Shown one piece after another: positions 36,914 through 54,412 of a DNA stretch of 64,000 nucleotides. Both the position numbers and the translations under genes were made by a program. Source of the DNA: Telopea speciosissima (lineage: Eukaryota; Streptophyta; Magnoliopsida; Proteales; Proteaceae); contig NC_057926.1 in assembly GCF_018873765.1 (NCBI RefSeq), positions 48,785,043-48,849,042 on the forward strand, given 5' to 3'. How positions within the stretch are numbered: the stretch's first letter is position 1; each line of letters begins with the position of its first letter. The notes beneath the pieces are model-generated. The model ran no database searches. It saw only the letters and a list, made by a program, of their open reading frames with translations, and was not told the origin of the DNA.

Positions 36914-37280
36914 AATGTGACGCTAACATCCAAATACAAGAGGGGGCAAAATGATGTCTCTGCCCCCATGAAATGCAAAATGACTACCCCACCCGATGCT
37001 TCTAAATATGCTCCCATTGACCCCGCACAGACTCAGGGCTCCACCCCCACCCCACCCCACCCCACCCCACCCTACCCTAAGTAACACTTCCTCTATTATT
37101 ATCATCTGCAACCCTCAAGACCAGCAGCACATGTTACCATTGAAACTATTGGAGATTCTAATCCAGATGTTGAAAGATTGCACAATTACGTGTAGGCCCC
37201 GACTATATATAGAACAAAACTTAGAAGTGAACTCACGTGACAACCCCCATTTTCATCCCATTGTAAGTGTGGAATTGGGT

Positions 37281-37290
37281 TATAAAAAGG
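37281..37290 (+). promoter_or_regulatory. TATA box of the GST pseudogene (TATAAAAAGG)
   Basis: A strong TATAAAAAGG lies 83-92 bp upstream of the GST ATG, giving a predicted start site near 37315 and a leader of about 60 nt. Its conservation suggests the locus may still be transcribed. Confidence 0.5.
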
Positions 37291-39348
37291 GTTGTAGGTG
37301 ACCCTGAGAAGAAGGAAAGAAGCGAAGCCTCTTGTTTTGTTGTTGAAACTTGAAAGAGTACTAGAGAGAAACATGGTGGTGAAGGTCTCTGGTTCTTTTG
37401 CTGCAGTTTTGTTTCCGAGGGTAATGGCGACCTGACTTATGAAGAAGGATTTCGAGTTTGACGTCATCCATCTCTCCTTCTAACAAAAACCACTAGAGTT
37501 CCTTCCTCGTCAGGTGAATCTTTGGGCCACGATGGGTATTTCAACTTTTTTTTTTTTGGGGGGGGGGGGGGGGGCGGGTAAGACGGGAAAAATTTTTATT
37601 GCTAGACTTGTAGAAGGAATATTTCTGCTACAAAGCTGGAAGCCAAAAAAACAGAATAATTCATTTCCCTTTTGAGTTCATAAATACTTTCCTAGGTTTT
37701 ATTATTTTCTAAAATAACCTTTAAGATCTCATTTCCTTGGCTGCTGGCCTACAAGAGTTTTTTTTTTTTTTTTGCTAAAGATCAACAAGGTATATATTAT
37801 GAACATAAAAGAGAGTGATACAATCCACCCGGTGACTATCCCTACTTATTCAGTGGAATAGAGAGATAGGCACAAAACATCCACCGTTTTGTAGTGGTTA
37901 AAACCTGTAATATGGGCGGCCTAGAGCCTCCCATACAATGGAGTGGGCTATACAATTCGGTGTTGTGGACCATGTTTATGATTCTTTATTCCTTGCTGCC
38001 TTTTTTGCTAGCACATCAGCTATGGTGTTAACTTCTCTAAAACAGTGTCATTCGCCATTATATGGAGTCTAGGTATCCTGCTACCGTCCTCCAATGTTGT
38101 AAATAGTTCTAGGGTAGATTGACTTACAATATAGATGACACCACCGCGACAGAGTCACACTCTACCCAAAGATGCCTACAAGAGTTATTAACTTTGTTTT
38201 TATCTCTTTTATCTATGTGTGGGTGTGTATGAGAGAGAGAGAGAGAGAGAGAGAGGCGCTGGCTCAGGTTTACATACGTAATTTGGATTTCTTCTATACG
38301 ACTCAAGAGCTTATGAGAGGCTAGCTCAGGTTTACCTATGAGAACCATCTCGTACGCTCAAGAGCTTATGATATGATTTTTAACAATAGCTATCTAGCGT
38401 AATTGATGAACTGTGGTGCACATCATGCCCATGCTCACCAGGAGGTCTCTGGATGTTGCCTGTCCCCTCCCCAGTTCCCCTTGTAAGAAAAATATATCAA
38501 ACCTCCCAATTCCCAAAAAACCCTGAGCTGGACTCAGAGGGGGAGGTTTGTTAGCTTTGTATTGTTCATGCGTATGACAGAGTAACTTTGTTTTTGTCTT
38601 TTTTACTGTGTGCGGGTGCGTGGGAGAAAGATGAAGAGAGAGAGAGAGAGAGGCAGGTTTGTTTGTTACTGTTTATGTATATGATGGAGTAACTTTGGTT
38701 TTTGTTTTTTTTGTCCTGTGTTCGTGTGAGAGAGATTATACCCAAAAAAAAAAATGAGGGTGTTCATAAAAAAAAGGAGAGAGAGAGAGAGAGGGGGTTG
38801 GTCAGTTTTGATACTGTTCATGTAAGACAGAGTACCTTTGTTTTTGTCTTTTTTTTGTTTTTTCTATGTGTGCGTGGAATATGGATCGTGTTTTTGTACA
38901 AATACAGTTGAAGGCCCTCTAGGATCACTCGCATGAAATCTAATGTGAAACTCACAGAAGGAGTGGATTTCATTAGAATAAGTGTTTCTTAAAGGCCTTG
39001 TGTCTTACAGTTACACGCAGGGCTGCGCTCCCCTCTCTCTCTCTCAACACTTCCTCTATTATCGATATGAACCAGTTGCCTCATAGCAGCTTAAGATTTA
39101 TATATATATATATATATATATATGACAGCCTTTTTTCTGTTTCAGTCTATCTTGAATGCCATGACATTTCTAAGACTAATCCCATGATAATTTCTATTTG
39201 GAAGCTTTGAATCCACCTTCCCTCGTGGTTGGAAATCTGAAGCTACCGACCTATGCATGCACATGAAGGATCTAACTAGGAGATCGAGTTTTAGCACATA
39301 TTTACACACTTATCCATCCCATTATAATTACTCTTAGGGAGAGGGATG

Positions 39349-39445
39349 AGTATGCTAGCAGCCTATGTGTTTATCTCTCTCTTCCCCATTTCAAAAGGGG
39401 GAAGAGAGAGATAGACACATAGGGTGCTAGCTCACTGTATATACA
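39349..39445. repeat. Hairpin MITE family T1, copy 2 (in GST pseudogene intron 1)
   Basis: GCTAGCAGCCTATGTGTTTA and CTCTCTCTTCCCC pair with GGGGAAGAGAGAGATAGACA and CATAGGGTGCTAGC. Confidence 0.6.
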
Positions 39446-40498
39446 CCACTAGCATATCCAGCCTTTTCCCTTACTCTTAATAAGATACTTCTTTCGAACA
39501 AGTTATATGATCAGGTGAATTAGCTTTAATTTGTGCTTAGTTATAATCAAATTTATGATTCATCTCTTTTCTTCTTGGCTTCTAACTACAGATTTGTTGG
39601 TGTTTTGTAGCTGTTTGGGAAAGCTCCTGTGATAGAAGATGGAGACATGAGGCGCTTTGGTAAGATCTTATTTACCAACACACTACATTGTGGGAAAGTC
39701 ATAAATGTTCTGCCATACAAAAATTATAGAGAAACGCTCATACCCGGCCACAGATAGAGGGAGGCAAAATGACTCCCCCACCCTCATGGTAGGTGGAAAT
39801 TAATTCCGACCCCATGATGCCAACGTATGTACTCTCATTGGCCCCACACACGCATAGGGGCTACACTCTCCATAGAAAACGTCAACGCAAAATTTATTAT
39901 TGTTGTCCAACACCTTAACGTCTTGTTTGGATAATTGGAATTCCCGCCTGCATTATTATTGTAGTTGTTTTTGTTAAGAGGGTGGTTTATTTAGAAAAAC
40001 CATTTTAAATGACAGTTTACTTTGTCTACAATTTAAATTCTCGCAATACATGAGCATTTGGTCTTTCGTTGATTTTTTTATTATTATTTTTTGGTAGAGA
40101 TCAATTTATTCATTACTCGTGGCCAAATTATCTAATTTGTCACCGACAACACCTTCCGAGCTAGGGAGTTAACTAACGTGTTAATCTCCTTAGTCATACT
40201 CTAATTAAACTCAAAAAGTAGGAAAACTGATTGTGATTTAAGGGCCTTCCTTCTTAGCTTTCTTTGATTAATTAGATAGTAACCTAATATTGTCATCTCA
40301 TGTCGATGTGAAGGATTGATTGTGAACCAATTCATTCAGCAAACTAAGTTTCAAACACCCCAATGATAATGACCCCTTAGGGATCTTAATTTTTTTAACA
40401 ATCCATGCATGCATCTTCGAATTTCATTTCCCCACCTCCTATCTAAAGTCTGTTGGCAATATATATTAAGGACTGAGTTCCCTGTCTGGCTGTGTAGA

Positions 40499-40612
40499 AT
40501 ACGATAGCACCTCCCTGTGTCTATCTCTCTCCTCCTACAATAAGAGGCGGCCGATATATCATTTCATAGGAAGAAGGATAGAGAAACATAAGGAGATACT
40601 ACCGTATGCTAT
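40499..40612. repeat. Hairpin MITE family T1, copy 3 (in GST pseudogene intron 2)
   Basis: ATACGATAGCACCTCCCTGT ... pairs with ...ACATAAGGAGATACTACCGTAT; more diverged than the other copies. Confidence 0.5.
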
Positions 40613-41948
40613 GCAGCTCGTCAACATTCTTCTTCCCATCAATTAAGTTATAACAAACCATATCCATAGCTGACAGGAATGATATTCACAAAATTTGAGA
40701 AATGCAAAAGGGAAAATTGCCACATCATGGCCTAATCCCTAAACTTATCTGGTCAGCCCAAGTAATCTATCATGTGGCAGCAGGATGATGTGGTGATTCT
40801 GATTTTCAAACTGAAAGGGCAACATTTGGATTGGTATGTAGCTCCCATAGTCCTTTTATAGACGTAACTCTTGTCAGAGTTTTATTTTATCACTTAGTGC
40901 TCTAATTGGGCCAAAACTTAACAGGTGGCCAGTGGATCTTGGTATCCACCAATTCACATTATCTAGCATGTCACATGGTAGATTTTTTAGCCAATCATAT
41001 AAAGTAATCTGGGGTGAACCAAATATACTTTACCAAATAAGAGATTAAAAAAATGTAAAAACAAGTTTTGGTATATATACCAAAAGAGTTAGGAGAAACT
41101 TTTCCTTCACCATGTGTTGAAGGTTCATCATACAATCCTAGGATTCACAAACCCTTAAAAGGTTTTAGCATGTTTCCCAAAATATTCTTTTGCTACCCAA
41201 GCCCTGCAGTGAATGAATTCCCATTCACCATGGCATAAGGAAGAGAAAACTTTGATCATGTCGTCTAAGTCATAGCGACAACCAATGGAGTACCTTAAAC
41301 TTTGGAGGGAAGATGGTGACTTCAAGAGAGAGAGAGAGTTTTTCAACACTTAGATAGGGTAAGCGAATAATGACGAGTGAGGGTGTGTTAGTAAGCTGTG
41401 GAGCCCTCTCATCTAAGGATTTGGATCCTCTGCGGCCTGGGGTTAAGCGGGCATCATGCTGCGCTCAACCCACAGCCACCACTAGAATTTTATACCAATC
41501 CAACTGTTGGTAAACGAGTTCAATTCAAAATTACTACTCAAAATTAAAAAATGTCAGGCATCCATCTACCGCTCAACTCCAGGCCGCAGAGGATCCAAAT
41601 CCCTTGTCCAAGGCCATATTAAGGCTAGAATTTCGTACATTATCGAGCCCTTATTAGAACTAGAAATTAATGAAAGTTTTATCTTAGCAATCAATTGATC
41701 AATTTTCTGTTTATGCTTGTCTCAGAGTCAACAACAATCATAAGATACATTGCAGCGAAGTACACCAACCATGGTCCTAATCTGCTAGGGAACATACTGA
41801 AGGAACCAGCTTTAGTCGATCAATGGCTCAAAGAAGACATCAAAACGCACAACTTCGATGACTTGGTCTTTACTTCGGCATTGAAGCTCATCATCCTTCC
41901 ATGGATCGAGAAGGTGTTCGATATTTACGGAGAGCAGATGTTAAAGAT

Positions 41949-42230
41949 ATGTCCTCCCACCATGAATTGACATTCTTCCTTCCCTTCACTATATCACTCA
42001 TTCCGAGTTTATCCGTTATTACTCGAATGCCGGGAAGGTGACTCATATCAGCGAGTGTGAAGCTGTCTCCGGCAAGAAAGTTGCTTTTCGACGACTAATG
42101 GAGCAATTATCTTGCCAGAGACAGCTTCATTCTCGCTAATATGAGCTATCTTCCCGGCATTCGAGTATTAATGGTTAAACTCGGAATGAGTGAACTAGTG
42201 AAAAGGGAAGGAAGAATGTCAATAAATGGT
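41949..42230. repeat. GST inverted repeat 1 (hairpin)
   Basis: The minus-oriented arm 41949-42085 and plus-oriented arm 42102-42230 are reverse complements of the GST last-exon end, separated by a 16-nt spacer (42086-42101). By eye about 15 differences over about 127 aligned bases, so near 88% pairing. The minus arm starts exactly where the normal GST reading frame breaks off. Confidence 0.9.
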
Positions 42231-42455
42231 GAGTTTTATCCGTTATTACTTGAATGCCGGGAAGGTAGCTCATATCAGCGAGTGTGAAGTTATCTCCGAC
42301 AAGAAAGTTGCTTTTTGACGACTAATGGAGCATCTATCTTGCTGGAGACAGCTTCATTCTCGCTAATCTGAGCTATCTTCCCGTCATGCGAGTAATAATA
42401 GATAAACTTGGAATGAGTGAACTAGTGAAAGAAAGGAAGAATGTCAATGAATGGT
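42231..42455. repeat. GST inverted repeat 2 (hairpin)
   Basis: A shorter minus arm (42231-42312), a 16-nt spacer (42313-42328) and a plus arm (42329-42455). The spacer is nearly the same as in unit 1, which shows that the units arose by duplication of one hairpin. Confidence 0.88.
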
Positions 42456-42470
42456 GGTTGATAATTATTC

Positions 42471-42815
42471 TGGGTTTTATCCATTATTACTTGAATGTCG
42501 ATATATTGACGTATATAGGAGTTTCACTCATATAGAAACTCCTATATATGTTAATAGCCGGGAAGGTGGCTCATATTAGCGAGTGTGAAGCTGTCTCCGG
42601 CAAGAAAGTTGCTTTTTGAAGACTAATGGAGCAATTATCTTGCCGGAGACAGCTTCATTCTCGCTAATCTGAGCTATCTTCCTGGCATTCAAGTATTAAT
42701 GGATAAACTTGAAATGAATGAACTAGTGAAGGGAAGGAAGAATGTCAATGAATGGTGGGAGGACATTTATAACAGGACTTCTTGGAAGACAGTCATGAAG
42801 CTTAGGGGTTGATGC
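42471..42815. repeat. GST inverted repeat 3 (hairpin) with small palindromic insert
   Basis: The minus arm (about 42471-42613) is interrupted near 42498-42558 by a roughly 60-bp insert that is itself palindromic. The spacer is 42614-42629 and the plus arm starts at 42630. The plus arm runs past the repeat into unique sequence encoding WEDIYNRTSWKTVMKL and a stop, the normal C-terminus of a phi GST. Confidence 0.88.
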
Positions 42816-43327
42816 ATAAGCCTTTTGAAGCTTGAAGCCTCTTCTATATGATCCAAGAATAATAGGCTCAAGTGAAATAAGATATGATATGATATGTGAG
42901 CATAGGATCCGACTACTTGAATTATTTGCTGTAAAACCTGTTTCAGATTATTTGAGAGTGAATGTAATGGGAGGGTGGAGTTAGATTACTTTCTAATAAA
43001 ATTCAGAATTTCTTGAATTGATTAAGGGTCATCATGGATTTCCACTATACTGATTTGAAGGAGGAAAAGAACTAAGAAATTAACAATCCTCTATGGGATG
43101 GAAATTAAATTATCGTCGCTACCAACTTTTATTAGAGACAAATAAAAATTTCCGTCTCTAAAAAACATCGCTAATACACTTTTCTGTTTAGTGTAAGTTG
43201 ATTCAGCTTTCAGTAGTTGTTTTCAACTTAGTTCTCTGCATGTTTATCAGATGTACTAATTATTACCTCAAACCCTTTCTTTTGTAAAACATGGGAAAGG
43301 GGTTAAAAGTGATGTATTTAAAATGAG

Positions 43328-43462
43328 GCCAAATGTTCTCCGTGTCGAGGGCACAGGCTGCGCCCAGACACATGGGGGTGGGCGAAATGACCATCCTACC
43401 CCTTGAATGGCAGGCCCATGTGTCTGTGCGCAGGTTGTGCTGCGGCATAGAGAACATCAGTC
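43328..43462. mobile_element. GC-rich hairpin MITE family G1, copy 3
   Basis: CAAATGTTCTCCGTGTCG pairs with CGGCATAGAGAACATC; the core has GCGCCCAGACACATGGGGGT and CCATGTGTCTGTGCGC. Confidence 0.65.
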
Positions 43463-43505
43463 CTTAAAATGATTTAGTTTTTCTGGAGAGGAGAACGCTG
43501 CCAAA

Positions 43506-43608
43506 CTGCATAGCAAACGCTAGCGCCTCCCTATGTCTATCTCTCCTCCCTCCTATTGTGAGAGGAGAGAGATAGACATTGGGAGGCGTTAGCTATTGCA
43601 ATGCAGCT
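43506..43608. repeat. Hairpin MITE family T1, copy 1
   Basis: CTGCATAGCAAACGCTAGCG ... TGTCTATCTCTCCTCC pairs with GGAGAGAGATAGACATTGGG ... GCAATGCAG. Related hairpins at 39349-39445 and 40499-40612. Confidence 0.6.
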
Positions 43609-43628
43609 GAATAGGGAAAATCTGAGGA

Positions 43629-44027
43629 CATGTTTCTTTTCAAGAGCATAATGTACACTAGTACTCCTTGTGAAGTACAACGTTACACTATTTGCCACGT
43701 GATAGTACATGAGTTAGTTCAAGTGATAGAGGACCTCACAAACATTTTAATGGCAAAATTTTAATACAAAGTAACCAAGGAAAATTGTTCAAACTTTGAT
43801 TCAAAGTTTTAGGAAAATTACCCGAAATGTCATCAAATAGACATGAATATAGAATACAAACCAGCAGCTTTTGTAATTTAGCTACCTCTACTCATTCTAA
43901 GTTGAAATTGTACCAATGAGATGTTTGTCAGGTCCTTTATCATATATATGGAATGACCAATGTATTATCATGTGACAAATAGTGAAACGTTACACTTCTC
44001 TGGGCATAATGACGGAAAAGAAAACCC

Positions 44028-44028
<1 letters not shown>
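43629..44028. mobile_element. Inverted-repeat MITE family I1, copy 1
   Basis: Ends (ACGTTACACTATTTGCCACG / ATGTGACAAATAGTGAAACG) pair over about 50 bp. The interior shares AATGGCAAAATTTTAATACA with 59135-60310. Confidence 0.65.

Positions 44029-44031
<3 letters not shown>

Positions 44032-44073
<42 letters not shown>
44032..44073. repeat. (GA)n microsatellite
   Basis: About 21 GA units. Other GA tracts lie at about 5568-5597, 5740-5766, 38231-38255 and 46956-46979. Confidence 0.9.
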
Positions 44074-44076
<3 letters not shown>

Positions 44077-44794
44077 ATGTTCAATAACTTCCTTACCCTT
44101 ACCATAAACCTGGTACCAGCTGGAATCAAAGTTTGGCAAAGTTAAGGAGAGAGAATTCTTATTGTGATAACTCCAGTCAACATCTTCCATGAGAGAGAGA
44201 GAGAGAGAGATCCCTTTTTTTTTTGTTTCTTTTCTTTTTGGTGAATTAAGGAAATTAAATTACTTAGGTAAATTTATAAAAGAGGTATGATACAAAAAGA
44301 TTGTTTTCCAAATAATGTACAAAATGCTTAATACCGCATAATTGAAACCAAAGGATTATCAGGATGATGTTGCATCGACATAGCAAAAAAATGAAATAAG
44401 GCGGGCATGAGAGAGACTTCTCTTATTCAAATAGGGTTGTAGGAATCAATTGGAATCGGATGAGGCTCACTTGATTCCGATTCAAGTTGATCGATTCAGC
44501 CAATTCAATTCCAATTCCTTGAAACACGGAGCTAGCAGGACATAATTTCTTTATAATATATTAGACTTTAGACATATTCATGTATTTATAGAGTGCACAA
44601 ATAGACATAGCCCACCAGCTAAAATATAGTCTGGACCAGACAATGAAAGTCTAGGTTCCATTGTTTTGGAGCTGCTTATTATTAAAGAACAAGTTAAGAA
44701 TAAGCTCCACACGTGCTCTTTATTCATACCATTTCACACGTGCGATTCTATATAGATAGATATAGAGCATCATCAATTATTCAATGTTTGCAAA

Positions 44795-49133: not shown

Positions 49134-52100
49134 TCAGGCTTTTACCAGCTCCGATGGAGCTTTCGACGGGCGAGCAAGCGATCTGGTATATGCCGCAGGC
49201 AAAGCCAAGATCTTCTTAGCTTTGCTAACAAACGCCCTCTTGGTGAAGTTATCATAGTCATTAGCTTCAATTTCATCCAGTATTTTACAGTACAACAGCA
49301 AAGAAGCCCACACCTGCAACCATATCAAAATGTGTTCTTTTGATCATGAAACTAAACATAAAACCAGCATAGATCAAGATGGATTGATGACGTTAACTTC
49401 CTTCTGTCATGGTCATATAACAATTGGACTGATAGAAATTTGGGACCATTACAGCAGTTGCTGAGGATAAACATTAGGCAACTTTAAATGCTTTCATATC
49501 AAACAACTGCAAGAGAAAGAAGGCATGGTACTGACATGCCTCCATTGGAGAGGGTGTTGAGCTGAACATAAAACATGAAACCCTCATAGTCTGAAGTTTC
49601 AGTGCAGTATGATGACTAACTGAACAGTTCAAGTCACTCTTTAAACATCTTACAATCCTCGTCCTTTTCTGCTTCTGTTACTAGGCAAGTTTCCATCAAT
49701 AAGCGATAGACTGTAAGATTAAATTCCTACAACAGGACAACCAAGTCATGATAATCCTCTTTACTTCAAGCTAATATCTTCTACATTTGAGATTGGGATG
49801 CAATTTGTGTAGGAACAACTCAAACCATGCTAATCAACCCAACCTTACACCTCCTCACTAGAGTCTGTTGTCTATTGGTTAATGGTTGCATTGTGGTATG
49901 TGAGATTTGAGAGACATATTGAACTTAAATCATATTTTAGCATGTATGACATTGCAAATTAAGCCATAGTGGTGGGGTTTGAGAATATTAGGCCCAGGAA
50001 GCACCCTGGTTGACCTCTAGGACAGGCTTTGGATCGACTCCAAATTTAGCCCAACCTTACCAAGCATAACTTGACTAAAATACCATGTCCAGATGCCACA
50101 GGATCTGAAGTCCAACATTCTACATTCTTATCATTGCGATTGTATTATGGTAGCGCATTTTTCATTACTGATATTTTTATGAATAATCCAAGATAATTCT
50201 CATCAGTTCAAAGAAATTGTAAGATTTTGATATTTTCAAAACATTCGCTCTTACCGGCCATCTACTTGCAGAACTGAGCTCTGTAACTCCCTTCTCTGCT
50301 TCATCAAAGAACATCCTTGCCCTCTTGATTTGTTTCTTCATGAAATTCCTCCATTTGTCTGTTACCCTCCCTGCAAATATGTCCTCTTCCGAAAGCCCTG
50401 CCTGTGCTAGCTCATCTTGTGGTAGATAAATTCTCCCTCTTCTTGAACTGAATCAAAGGAAACTTGTGAGAACTACAATAAAAGATCAGGTGTTTCTTCA
50501 AGGGCATTGAACCAACCAGTTAAAATTGTTCAGATGGTAACCACGTTGAACTAATTTTTGGGGACAGGAGCATGCCTCTTAGCATGGTCTTAATGATCAG
50601 TCTAAGATCGGTCAGATCACCCGATCCATCTTGGTAATGGAGGGAACCAATCAGACCTATCATTTATGGTGGTTTGGCTAATCCAACAGCAATGCCAGGA
50701 TCTTTCCCACTGGATCTTCCAAACCAGGCAACAGTCCAGGTTCCAATATCAATCTTTAAATCCTTGCTTCTTAAGGCAAGAGAGAATGTAAGAGCCTAAA
50801 TTCCACTAACTAATCACCCCAAACCCACTGCCCCCACCCCCAAAAAAAAAATATAAAAACACTAGAATTAACTAAGTTGAATTTCAATAAAAAAAAAATT
50901 AGACTCATAAGCAGCAAAAGAAATTTCTGCAGGTCCATACTTACTCTTCTCCAACATCCCTGAGTATGTTGGTTAGCTGATTTGCAATTCCTAATGCCAA
51001 GGCAGCATTGTACACGCTCTCTGTTGTTGCCTGTGACTCAGGAGCAATGCCCATAACTGGGACACTCATTAATCCAACAGTCCCAGCTACATAGTAACAG
51101 TAGAGATAGAGTTCATCAAAGTTCTCGTATCTGGACTTCTTGAGGTCCATCCTCATTCCTTCAATCATGTCTTTGAATGGCTGGAAGGTGAGAGACAATA
51201 GTTGCATGAGTAGTGTATGAAGATCAAAGGCCTCACGAATGGCAAGCATGATTAAACAGATAAAACAATGTGGTTATAGTGTTCTCAGATAAAGCAATAT
51301 GGTGGCAAGAAAAACTGTATGTACTGCGAACCTGAATGTCAACAGGAAATTTTGCAACTGTATCCGACAAAGCTGCATCCATCATATCAAATGGACGACC
51401 AGCAAAAAGATCCTCCAATCTTGATTCCCACCTGTCCAAAGCAGTAGGTGTTATATGCGAAGCATTGGGCCCATCAACAAGTTCATCTGTCCTCCTGCAC
51501 CACACTGCACAAAAAGGAATTCAAAAGAGCTGAATGAGGCAACAAATCCCTTTTAACGTATCCCAGATTGACTTTCAGCAGACATGTATCATCACCACAG
51601 ATAATAAGAAGGTAAAAAGTAATAAACTTAAAACTTTCAGTGGCTTTCTGGTATTAAAATATATTTAGCTGATAGCAAACGTATTGTCATCAACCCAAAG
51701 AAACTGACAAAAATTTACTTTCAGGTATGATTCGATTTATGCTTCGAGACTTGAGTGGGATATATCATCACAATGGTCAGAATAATACTTGCAGTTTTCA
51801 CATCCATTGATGAAGGAAGTGGGAACAATGCCATGAGGATCCTCATCATAGGCCAAGATTCAAGTGAATCGATTGACAAAACAATGCTCAAAGTCCTGGT
51901 TTCTCCTTTTTCCAGACTTTACTTTGTATCTTTGTTCATGTAAGTTGTTTTGGGTCAAGGAAGGAAATGGAAGACGATTTGGATCATCGATGTGGTTGGC
52001 ATTTAGTATATTTGAGACTTCATAGTTTCTTTTTTGAACAGTTTCTGTAGTCCAAATGATGATAGGTAAGAAGGTTAAGAAGCAAAAGAAGAAAGAAAGA

Positions 52101-53693
52101 AAAATTCTAAGAACAGATAGTAAGCATAGCAGATTCTCAACAGTACCCAGTAGTACATTGGTATGAGGTATAAAGTATCTATCTGCATTACAAGGACTTG
52201 GTAATGTGAGAAGGGAAACTTAGGGTCCCAACCAGAATATGATCCCGAAAGTTAAAAGCATAAGATAGTAATCTTGGATGTCATATCAACAAAGTGTAAG
52301 ACACTTCCAAGCAATATGCTGATTGAATTAAATAACCTGATGCCACCCACTTGCAGATAAAAAGATATGGTTGTCCAGATAACACAAAATAGAAAATACA
52401 AAGTTCAATATTATGCTAGGACTAATTATTTAAATATGGATTTGGTGTAACTTATTAAGAGATTTCAAGTTTTGAAACAGCAATGAGAGAATGGTGTTAT
52501 ATGTATTCTTACATTTTCTACATAAAGGAGGCAAAGTTTAATCGATCAATAGAGTTCCAAAAGGGTGAAATTCTTAGCTCTGTATTCTGAAAAATCTTCT
52601 TATCATTTATTCCCAATTACATTTTCTATGTTGCCATAAATATTGAGAATCAGGTCAGGAAGTAGCTTTACAAATTGGAGATAGTTACCCCCCCCCCACC
52701 TTCTTACAAGTTCTCAGCTGGAAGCATTTTTTATCGATTTAACTGAAGGATTACATAATGTAATGCACCAACTAATTCAGCATTTAATTAATAATAACAA
52801 AACATCAAGCCACCCACCTAACAACCCAAAGTTTCAGACGGGCATTAGCGCCCTGTCCTACTACAAGACCTAATCATAAGCCTCTCCCTTCACAGATAAA
52901 TAACTATTCATAAAAATGACCAATCCGTATACATTTGATATGTCTACTCTTAAAGATAATTATCTGGTAAACATATAAATTTCCATTTATATTGAATTAT
53001 AGCCCCTTACATGTAATTCTGCATTTACTACAAGGCATCCTGTTACTAAGGAAAGACTACAGAAATATCAGTTATAGTCAGTAGTCACACACCATAGATA
53101 GCCCAGATAGCTTTTCGCCTCTCAGGTGTCATAAGCAGAGTCCCTGAAAACAAGAAATCAATTCCATTAAGATGCCCAAGTAAAATCCTGCAAGTTAAAT
53201 GCTAATTAAGAGAAGACTAACCCAAGTAAAATGTCTTGGCATACTCGGCACAAACTTCACCACATCGATCATAAGCTTCATTCAACAAGCTCAGAGTCCC
53301 CGGAACAACCATGTCTGGTTTCACATCGAGGGCCTGTTTAGACCGCAACTGCTCGTTAACCAAAGCTGCCTGCTTAAGTACCACATCATAAACCTTTTGC
53401 TCTGAAGAGACTGCAATTTCTCCAGCAGGGTTTGCAATCAAGCTAGAGAGAACAGGGAAGTTCCCAGTGCTCTCTGACCCACCCAGACAAGAATACTTAA
53501 AATCTGAATTGAGAGAGCAAGAATTCCATTTTGATTTCTTGCCTTTTAGTCTCCCACCAGCCCTTAACCCCAGAGCTCTAGTTATGGACCTTGAATCATG
53601 AAACCGGCCTCCCTCTCTTATTGACCCCACAAACCCAATGCAGTTAGAGAAGTCTGTGTTGGTTGTGACAACCCATAACAGAGTAGCAGACAT
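49134..53693 (-). CDS. PSY: Phytoene synthase, plastid-targeted, 6 exons, 434 aa
   Basis: Exons in transcription order: 53693-53222, 53143-53093 (51 bp), 51504-51332, 51180-50945, 50447-50255, 49313-49134. All splice sites are GT-AG and phases agree (1,305 bp including TGA). The enzyme condenses two geranylgeranyl diphosphates to phytoene, the first committed step of carotenoid synthesis, in plastids. The start MSATLLWVV is typical of plant PSY, followed by a roughly 80-residue Ser/Arg/Gly-rich transit region. Both Asp-rich metal/diphosphate motifs are intact: DELVD at residues 181-185 and DVGED at 307-311, the second split by intron 4. The blocks [38 protein letters not shown] and [16 protein letters not shown] are family hallmarks. 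The 51-bp second exon and six-exon layout match plant PSY genes. No disabling change is seen. Intron 2 (51505-53092) is about 1.6 kb and contains no recognisable gene. Confidence 0.97.
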
Positions 53694-54412
53694 CCTCAAA
53701 ACTTCAACTTCTGATGCTCTAACACTACTTGGAACTTCTTTTTCACCTCTTTCTTTCCTAACTCATTAGACAGAAGAGCATCTTGACAGAATTTTACTAT
53801 GAGCTGAAGTTAAGATGACGAAAATGAAAGAAGGAACCCCTTAAGAGCCCAACAGATACACATAAACCCTTCTATGAGAGATTAATCTAAGCAAAAGAGA
53901 AAAAAGTAGAATTTAAATCAAAACAAAGCAAATAAATTGTCCAAGAACTACTCAATTGGTGCAGAGTTCTGTAAAAGTAACCACCCTCCGAATAATACTA
54001 AATTTTCAGGAACCTAAAAAAGCCCCCAAAAGGCAAAACAATAAAACCCAGAACCAAAAGGCTTAGGAAACTTTTCCTCAAATAAACCCAGAACCAAAAC
54101 GCTTAGGAGACTGTTCCTAGGATCTTCTTCTTCTTCTTCTTCCTGGAGATTTTACCTCAGTTTACTGATAACAGAATCACTCTTCCAATCCTGACCAATT
54201 TATGTTCCAATCGCAACAAAAAATGACAAAACAATCAGTCACAAGCAATAGAGCAGAACCCACCTGTTCTTCTTACTAACCACTCAAAAAAACCTCCATT
54301 AAAACCAAACCAAGCTTCTCTAACAACACCAGAAGACAAAGATGAAGCTCCTCAGAATTAACACCCACTCATTCCTCGATTCTCTTAGGATCTCACAATC
54401 TTTTCATCTGTT

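Follow-up and report, generated by a model that had tools for sequence, protein, structure and literature searches.

Plant Dicer-like enzymes cut long RNA duplexes into siRNAs, and the origin of plant MIRNA genes by inverted duplication is said to have been set out by Allen in 2004. The soybean I locus (GmIRCHS) consists of inverted repeats of a chalcone synthase (CHS) pseudogene, for which RNA silencing has been reported (PMC13051633; PMC3804491). A rice inverted pseudogene pair forms a 185-nt duplex of 83% identity around a loop of 1,283 nt, with mapped small RNAs (PMC2708354). Two further sources describe inverted duplication as an origin of plant MIRNA genes (PMC3237417) and the creation of RNA hairpins by template switch mutations (PMC8794818); homogenisation of arms by template switches is named in PMC8604942.

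The locus described here lies in the window (C11:48785043-48849042), the 64,000-nucleotide stretch of Telopea speciosissima DNA that was analysed, and consists of alternately inverted (M) and direct (P) copies of sequence from the terminal part of the last exon in a phi-class glutathione transferase (GSTF) gene. The array is like GmIRCHS in being an inverted repeat of a pseudogene from a family that it could silence, but it is built of three short tandem units in one exon, and its arms are 78-87% alike. As in the rice siRNA pseudogene pair, the hairpin is made of pseudogene sequence; there, however, two separate pseudogenes enclose the 1,283-nt loop, whereas in the array a single exon holds every copy and the loops are 16 nt. 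With the inverted-duplication origin of MIRNA genes it shares the head-to-head duplication of target-family sequence; it differs in having three tandem units. Like template switch mutations, it places a reverse-complement copy beside its source, but here the copy spans about 140 nt, comes with a 16-nt spacer that has no homology to the gene, and was followed by tandem duplication. Among the matches listed in open-licence PMC, at the level of titles and abstract openings, no GST-derived inverted-repeat locus was described. We consider it probable that the array arose by template-switch inversion and tandem duplication in a dead GST gene, and that it is mainly a neutral relic without clear selection on its hairpins.

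A GSTF pseudogene and its intact relative on C6

A search of the genome (822,943,500 bases in 1287 contigs) returned one close relative of the window GSTF among the matches listed, an intact gene on C6 whose three exons total 642 nt and form an open frame of 213 aa, with exon 3 uninterrupted. The remaining GSTF matches listed have at most 52% protein identity; the protein-level search scores the best candidates only, so that this list of GSTF loci is a minimum. A blastn search with the C6 gene recovered exon 1 of the window gene at 67% identity over 247 nt, with two in-frame stops, and exon 2 at 79% over 141 nt including its flanks, along with both halves of exon 3 and the 3′ UTR. An apparent absence of exons 1 and 2 from the window, where tblastn had found neither, was overturned by this result. 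The window gene is a pseudogene (Table 1). A three-exon structure is typical of phi-class GST genes, and the pseudogene has both this layout and a phi-class C-terminal sequence; in a comparison of the last plus copy (P3) with PDB, the matches were glutathione transferase chains (best E 1.8e-18), with chains named as phi class from 1.2e-12. A Pfam scan of five separate fragments of the gene returned no family, and we take the fragments to be too short or too diverged. A preserved TATA box had been proposed for this gene, and the TATA-like box at 37280 is indeed identical in the C6 gene.

Downstream of both GSTF loci, at ~8 kb in the window and ~20 kb on C6, lies a minus-strand gene, putatively phytoene-synthase-like. 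Given this shared neighbour, the two loci are homeologous or form a segmental duplicate; in our best reading, the window GST is the dead member of a duplicated phi-class GST pair, probably the homeologue of the C6 copy. Synonymous divergence from C6 (dS by NG86, few sites) was 0.50 in the first half of exon 3, 0.34 in M1, 0.71 in P3 and 0.17 in a phytoene-synthase-like exon, and values as uneven as 0.50 and 0.17 do not show that the two gene pairs are equally old. The phytoene-synthase-like pieces in the window lie at about 50177-53762 on the minus strand and have relatives on C6 and C2; C9 holds a short piece of the same kind with a stop.

Table 1. Parts of the pseudogene and of the array, in window coordinates.
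Feature	Position	Strand	Remarks
TATA-like box TTATAAAAAGGGTT	37280..37293	+	identical in the intact C6 gene
Exon 1 remnant	37373..37513	+	ATG, two in-frame stops, GT donor
Exon 2	39611..39659	+	open; AG acceptor and GT donor retained
Exon 3, first half	41726..41946	+	open; 48-nt gap and 6-nt gain relative to C6; acceptor CAG retained
M1, inverted copy of most of the second half of exon 3	41945..42085	-	left junction GTTA(A/G)AGA microhomology
Spacer S1, 16 nt	42086..42101	.	
P1, plus copy, shortened	42102..42232	+	
M2, partial inverted copy, 80 nt	42233..42312	-	
Spacer S2, 16 nt	42313..42328	.	
P2, plus copy, shortened, including junction to next unit	42329..42470	+	
M3, partial inverted copy, 88 nt in two pieces around insert	42471..42613	-	
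Hairpin insert within M3, 53 nt	42504..42556	.	22 internal pairs
Spacer S3, 16 nt	42614..42629	.	
P3, last plus copy, natural C-terminus and stop	42630..42812	+	
3′ UTR segment that aligns with C6	42813..42891	+	further piece at 42959-43030

Anatomy and origin of the array

The original prediction described six copies of the C-terminal coding segment in minus/plus alternation with nearly identical 16-nt spacers, beginning where the normal frame stops and ending in a plus copy that restores the natural C-terminus. All six copies are present at 41945-42812 in the order M1, P1, M2, P2, M3, P3, each derived from the end of the GSTF last exon; their completeness needs amending, M2 (80 nt) and M3 (88 nt) being partial and P1 and P2 shortened. 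The spacers (TTTCGACGACTAATGG, TTTTGACGACTAATGG and TTTTGAAGACTAATGG) differ from one another at one or two bases. Comparison with C6 agrees on both boundaries, since exon 3 ceases to be collinear with C6 at the start of the array and P3 brings back the C-terminus, the stop and the 3′ UTR. As had been proposed, the array is an inverted duplication that lies inside a pseudogene from the same family as its putative target, with a conserved TATA-like box upstream. Its inverted arms measure 137, 129 and 101 nt, with 84-86% complementarity, and it can also be read as three direct 219-nt units, two of which are 81% and 88% identical to the reference unit. The core of the insert in M3 matches 18 other places in the genome among the matches listed; in two of these 18 that were compared (L007 and L008), the insert resembles the end of a longer dispersed repeat.

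Copies of the same orientation resemble each other most (M-M 90-93%, P-P 86-92%, M-P 78-87%). Since the copies group by arm type, and not as M1 with P1 and so on, as three independent inversions would have it, there was one inverted insertion, followed by tandem triplication. The inner copies stop at nearly identical points, in M and in P alike, as expected if an internal stretch of M, spacer and P had been duplicated in tandem. The array had also been called self-amplified, a description not supported by this pattern, which fits a single inversion and ordinary tandem duplication.

The inverted insertion sits between codons that are adjacent in C6, and the reverse-complement copy adjoins its source; the copy is missing from C6, whose exon 3 is uninterrupted. 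C6 carries the 8-nt sequence GTTAGAGA twice, once at the insertion point and once on the minus strand, where the copied segment has its far end. The first junction in the window reads GTTAAAGA and continues along the minus strand. Such an inverted microhomology of 8 nt is the trace expected from a template switch. The second junction counts against this reading: no homology was recognised at the switch point there, and the 16-nt filler that forms the spacer has no homology to the gene. Based on the first junction, we infer that a replication template switch at the short inverted microhomology placed a reversed copy of the end of exon 3 within that same exon, which would have yielded a minus-spacer-plus unit and severed the C-terminus from the reading frame. 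This unit would later have been tandemly duplicated to three, and one arm would have acquired the small dispersed hairpin insert.

We weighed a separate source for the M copies, namely a GST neighbour in opposite orientation that became fused to the gene by a deletion. The divergence of M from P (13-23%), the lack of homology between spacer and gene, and the reading SSKSNF on the M side of spacer S1, a plausible GST stretch, would all fit such a fusion. It is nevertheless quite improbable, given that M1 begins at the exact codon of the insertion, that the first junction carries the 8-nt microhomology, that no second close GSTF besides C6 appeared among the matches listed (the next having at most 52% protein identity), and that at 15 sites M and P share a base that C6 lacks, although three sequences cannot separate out the changes on the C6 branch. 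An assembly artefact is scarcely credible. Palindromic read chimeras do exist, but the units differ by 12-19%, with arm-specific substitutions, indels of their own and an insert, none of which would be expected from chimeric reads.

Folding, divergence and possible action on the C6 gene

The array is a long inverted repeat able to fold into double-stranded RNA, as a hairpin-siRNA locus would be. A putative RNA covering 41945-42818 was predicted to fold at -485.8 kcal/mol, whereas 20 shuffled sequences averaged -231.6 (z -28); the three local hairpins folded separately sum to about -449. Up to three consecutive hairpins had been foreseen, and the long inverted arms that they call for are there, but the minimum-energy fold is not a series of three: 85 pairs join M1 to P1 and 41 join the outer end of M1 to the distal end of P3, with 72 between M2 and P3 and 75 between P2 and M3. 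Watson-Crick pairing averages 0.826 in the three local pairs of arms and 0.820 in the six non-local ones; with G-U pairs included, the means are 0.897 and 0.896, and the local hairpins are 86-93% paired. These properties bear on a nascent MIRNA gene under the inverted-duplication model, for which the inverse duplication of the family's own sequence and arms antisense to a family member would speak. We regard this reading as very unlikely: the long stems contain many mismatches, local arms pair no better than non-local ones, divergence between the copies is considerable, and no Rfam family reached the gathering score in 37000-44500.

With C6 as outgroup, 10 of the 15 sites at which M and P agree against C6 are third codon positions, a set that also includes changes on the presumably constrained C6 branch. 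The changes since the M/P split number 20 (12 in P, 8 in M) and are spread 7/7/6 over the three codon positions. The third-position share thus stands at 10/15 before and 6/20 after the split (p 0.044), and from these comparisons coding constraint seems to have been lost roughly when the inversion occurred. The M arms were not significantly slower to change than the P arms (8 versus 12 changes of 141 sites, p 0.49). Local pairing no better than non-local pairing, together with the even spread over codon positions, argues for an old array with no clear sign of selection. The original prediction had taken it for an early example, which fits poorly with M and P arms that differ by 13-23% and copies within an arm class that differ by 8-14%. 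We call the array old on the strength of this divergence between copies; dS (NG86, few sites) was 0.31 for M1-P3, 0.13 for M1-M2 and 0.18 for P2-P3, and because the dS values disagree and involve few sites, we attach no dates.

Tests for kept pairing in the hairpins were negative or weak. Leaving out three of the 20 polarised late changes, which lie at the ragged edge of M3, 17 were scored: nine break a local pair, three make a G-U pair, four restore a pair and one leaves a pair broken. The four restored pairs exceed the 1.2 expected (P 0.023, in a post hoc test on a small number), which counts against the relic reading and hints at exchange between arms or weak selection. Scored by strand, the 17 changes give nine breaks and three G-U pairs on plus and seven breaks and five G-U pairs on minus. 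An asymmetry of wobble pairs between strands was considered as a sign of selection, the plus strand folding at -485.8 and the minus strand at -423.8, but was rejected, as the plus strand breaks more pairs. Examined for a methylation footprint, the polarised singletons include 14 of 24 that are C>T or G>A and one that is T>C, an A+T bias without clear context (changed sites: CG 3/52, CHG 3/56, CHH 8/201).

As would also be expected of a hairpin-siRNA locus, the arms show complementarity to an intact gene in the same genome. Complementarity to GST mRNAs had been proposed in general terms; among the GSTF loci compared, it held for the C6 gene. Scored against that gene, 110 of the 854 plus-strand 21-mers had values of 4 or less, and the one perfect antisense 21-mer seen, GAATGCCGGGAAGGTGACTCA, lies at 42025-42045. 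An extension to GSTs at large is not supported. Of the 14 GSTF loci, C6 alone shows more than 12 nt of uninterrupted antisense identity; the other 13, compared by their longest exact antisense run alone, have runs of 10-12 nt, so that any action in trans would fall mainly on one gene. Within the array, 106 of 218 21-mers from the M arms (inner 57 nt only of M3) scored 4 or less, compared with 51 of 341 from the P arms read antisense, an excess in M that counts against the relic reading. Outside the hairpins, the corresponding counts were 85/203 in the other half of exon 3, 17/30 in exon 2 and 4/121 in exon 1. The M arms thus match C6 about as well as does the non-hairpin half of the exon, and they are not clearly better kept.

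These observations are those on which a working trans-silencer would be argued. Here the old promoter would transcribe the pseudogene, the spliced RNA would end in hairpins, and siRNAs from the M arms would lower the C6 GSTF mRNA, by analogy with the soybean pseudoCHS repeat and chalcone synthase. The retained TATA-like box and splice sites, which count against the relic reading, would suit this role, as would the perfect 21-mer at 42025, the number of C6-directed 21-mers and their excess in the M arms, the pairing of the local hairpins and the excess of pair-restoring changes. Against it stand the absence of any local preference in pairing, the M arms' failure to evolve significantly more slowly than the P arms, their match to C6, about as good as that of the non-hairpin exon half, and the nine of 17 late changes that break pairs. 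We therefore judge a working silencer unlikely. We give still less credence to a fuller version, in which a single replication error made one GST duplicate a hairpin silencer of the other, with the promoter kept, dose gained by triplication and the arms partly re-matched by exchange.

The best reading of the sequence is that the array is a mutational relic and, at the same time, a potential hairpin-siRNA locus. Transcription from the remaining promoter, if any, would give an RNA that folds into long imperfect duplexes, and siRNAs diced from these could target the locus itself and, through guides from the M arms, the C6 gene. If it functions at all, its mode of action would by analogy be that of natural loci built from inverted pseudogene repeats, as in GmIRCHS and the rice inverted pseudogenes. 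With the intact sister gene and the point of insertion identified, and the microhomology and tandem steps in view, the locus offers a traceable case of a duplicated gene becoming an inverted repeat against its sister. Should small RNAs be found, decay after gene duplication would be generating a silencer of the surviving copy; should there be none, the locus would show that even conspicuous arrays of hairpins can survive as relics, which would call for caution in predicting new MIRNA and siRNA loci from sequence only.

Other inverted repeats in the window

The window has four other places where inverted repeats of 60 nt or more lie within 600 nt, so hairpin-forming DNA is not in itself rare there; among the inverted-repeat places listed for the window, no second alternating gene-derived array was seen. 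The inverted repeat at 629-1225 has arms of 234 nt that are 84% complementary and 129 nt apart; no arm in the GST array is as long. In the intron before exon 3, a 34-nt inverted repeat at 41417-41602 (94% complementary, 118 nt apart) is probably a small foldback element. A palindromic MITE-like element with 47-nt arms, 83% complementary, lies at 43506-43606; one of its arms is matched at 40505-40558 (78%, inverted), which suggests that a second, decayed copy probably lies at about 40490-40620, before the last exon.
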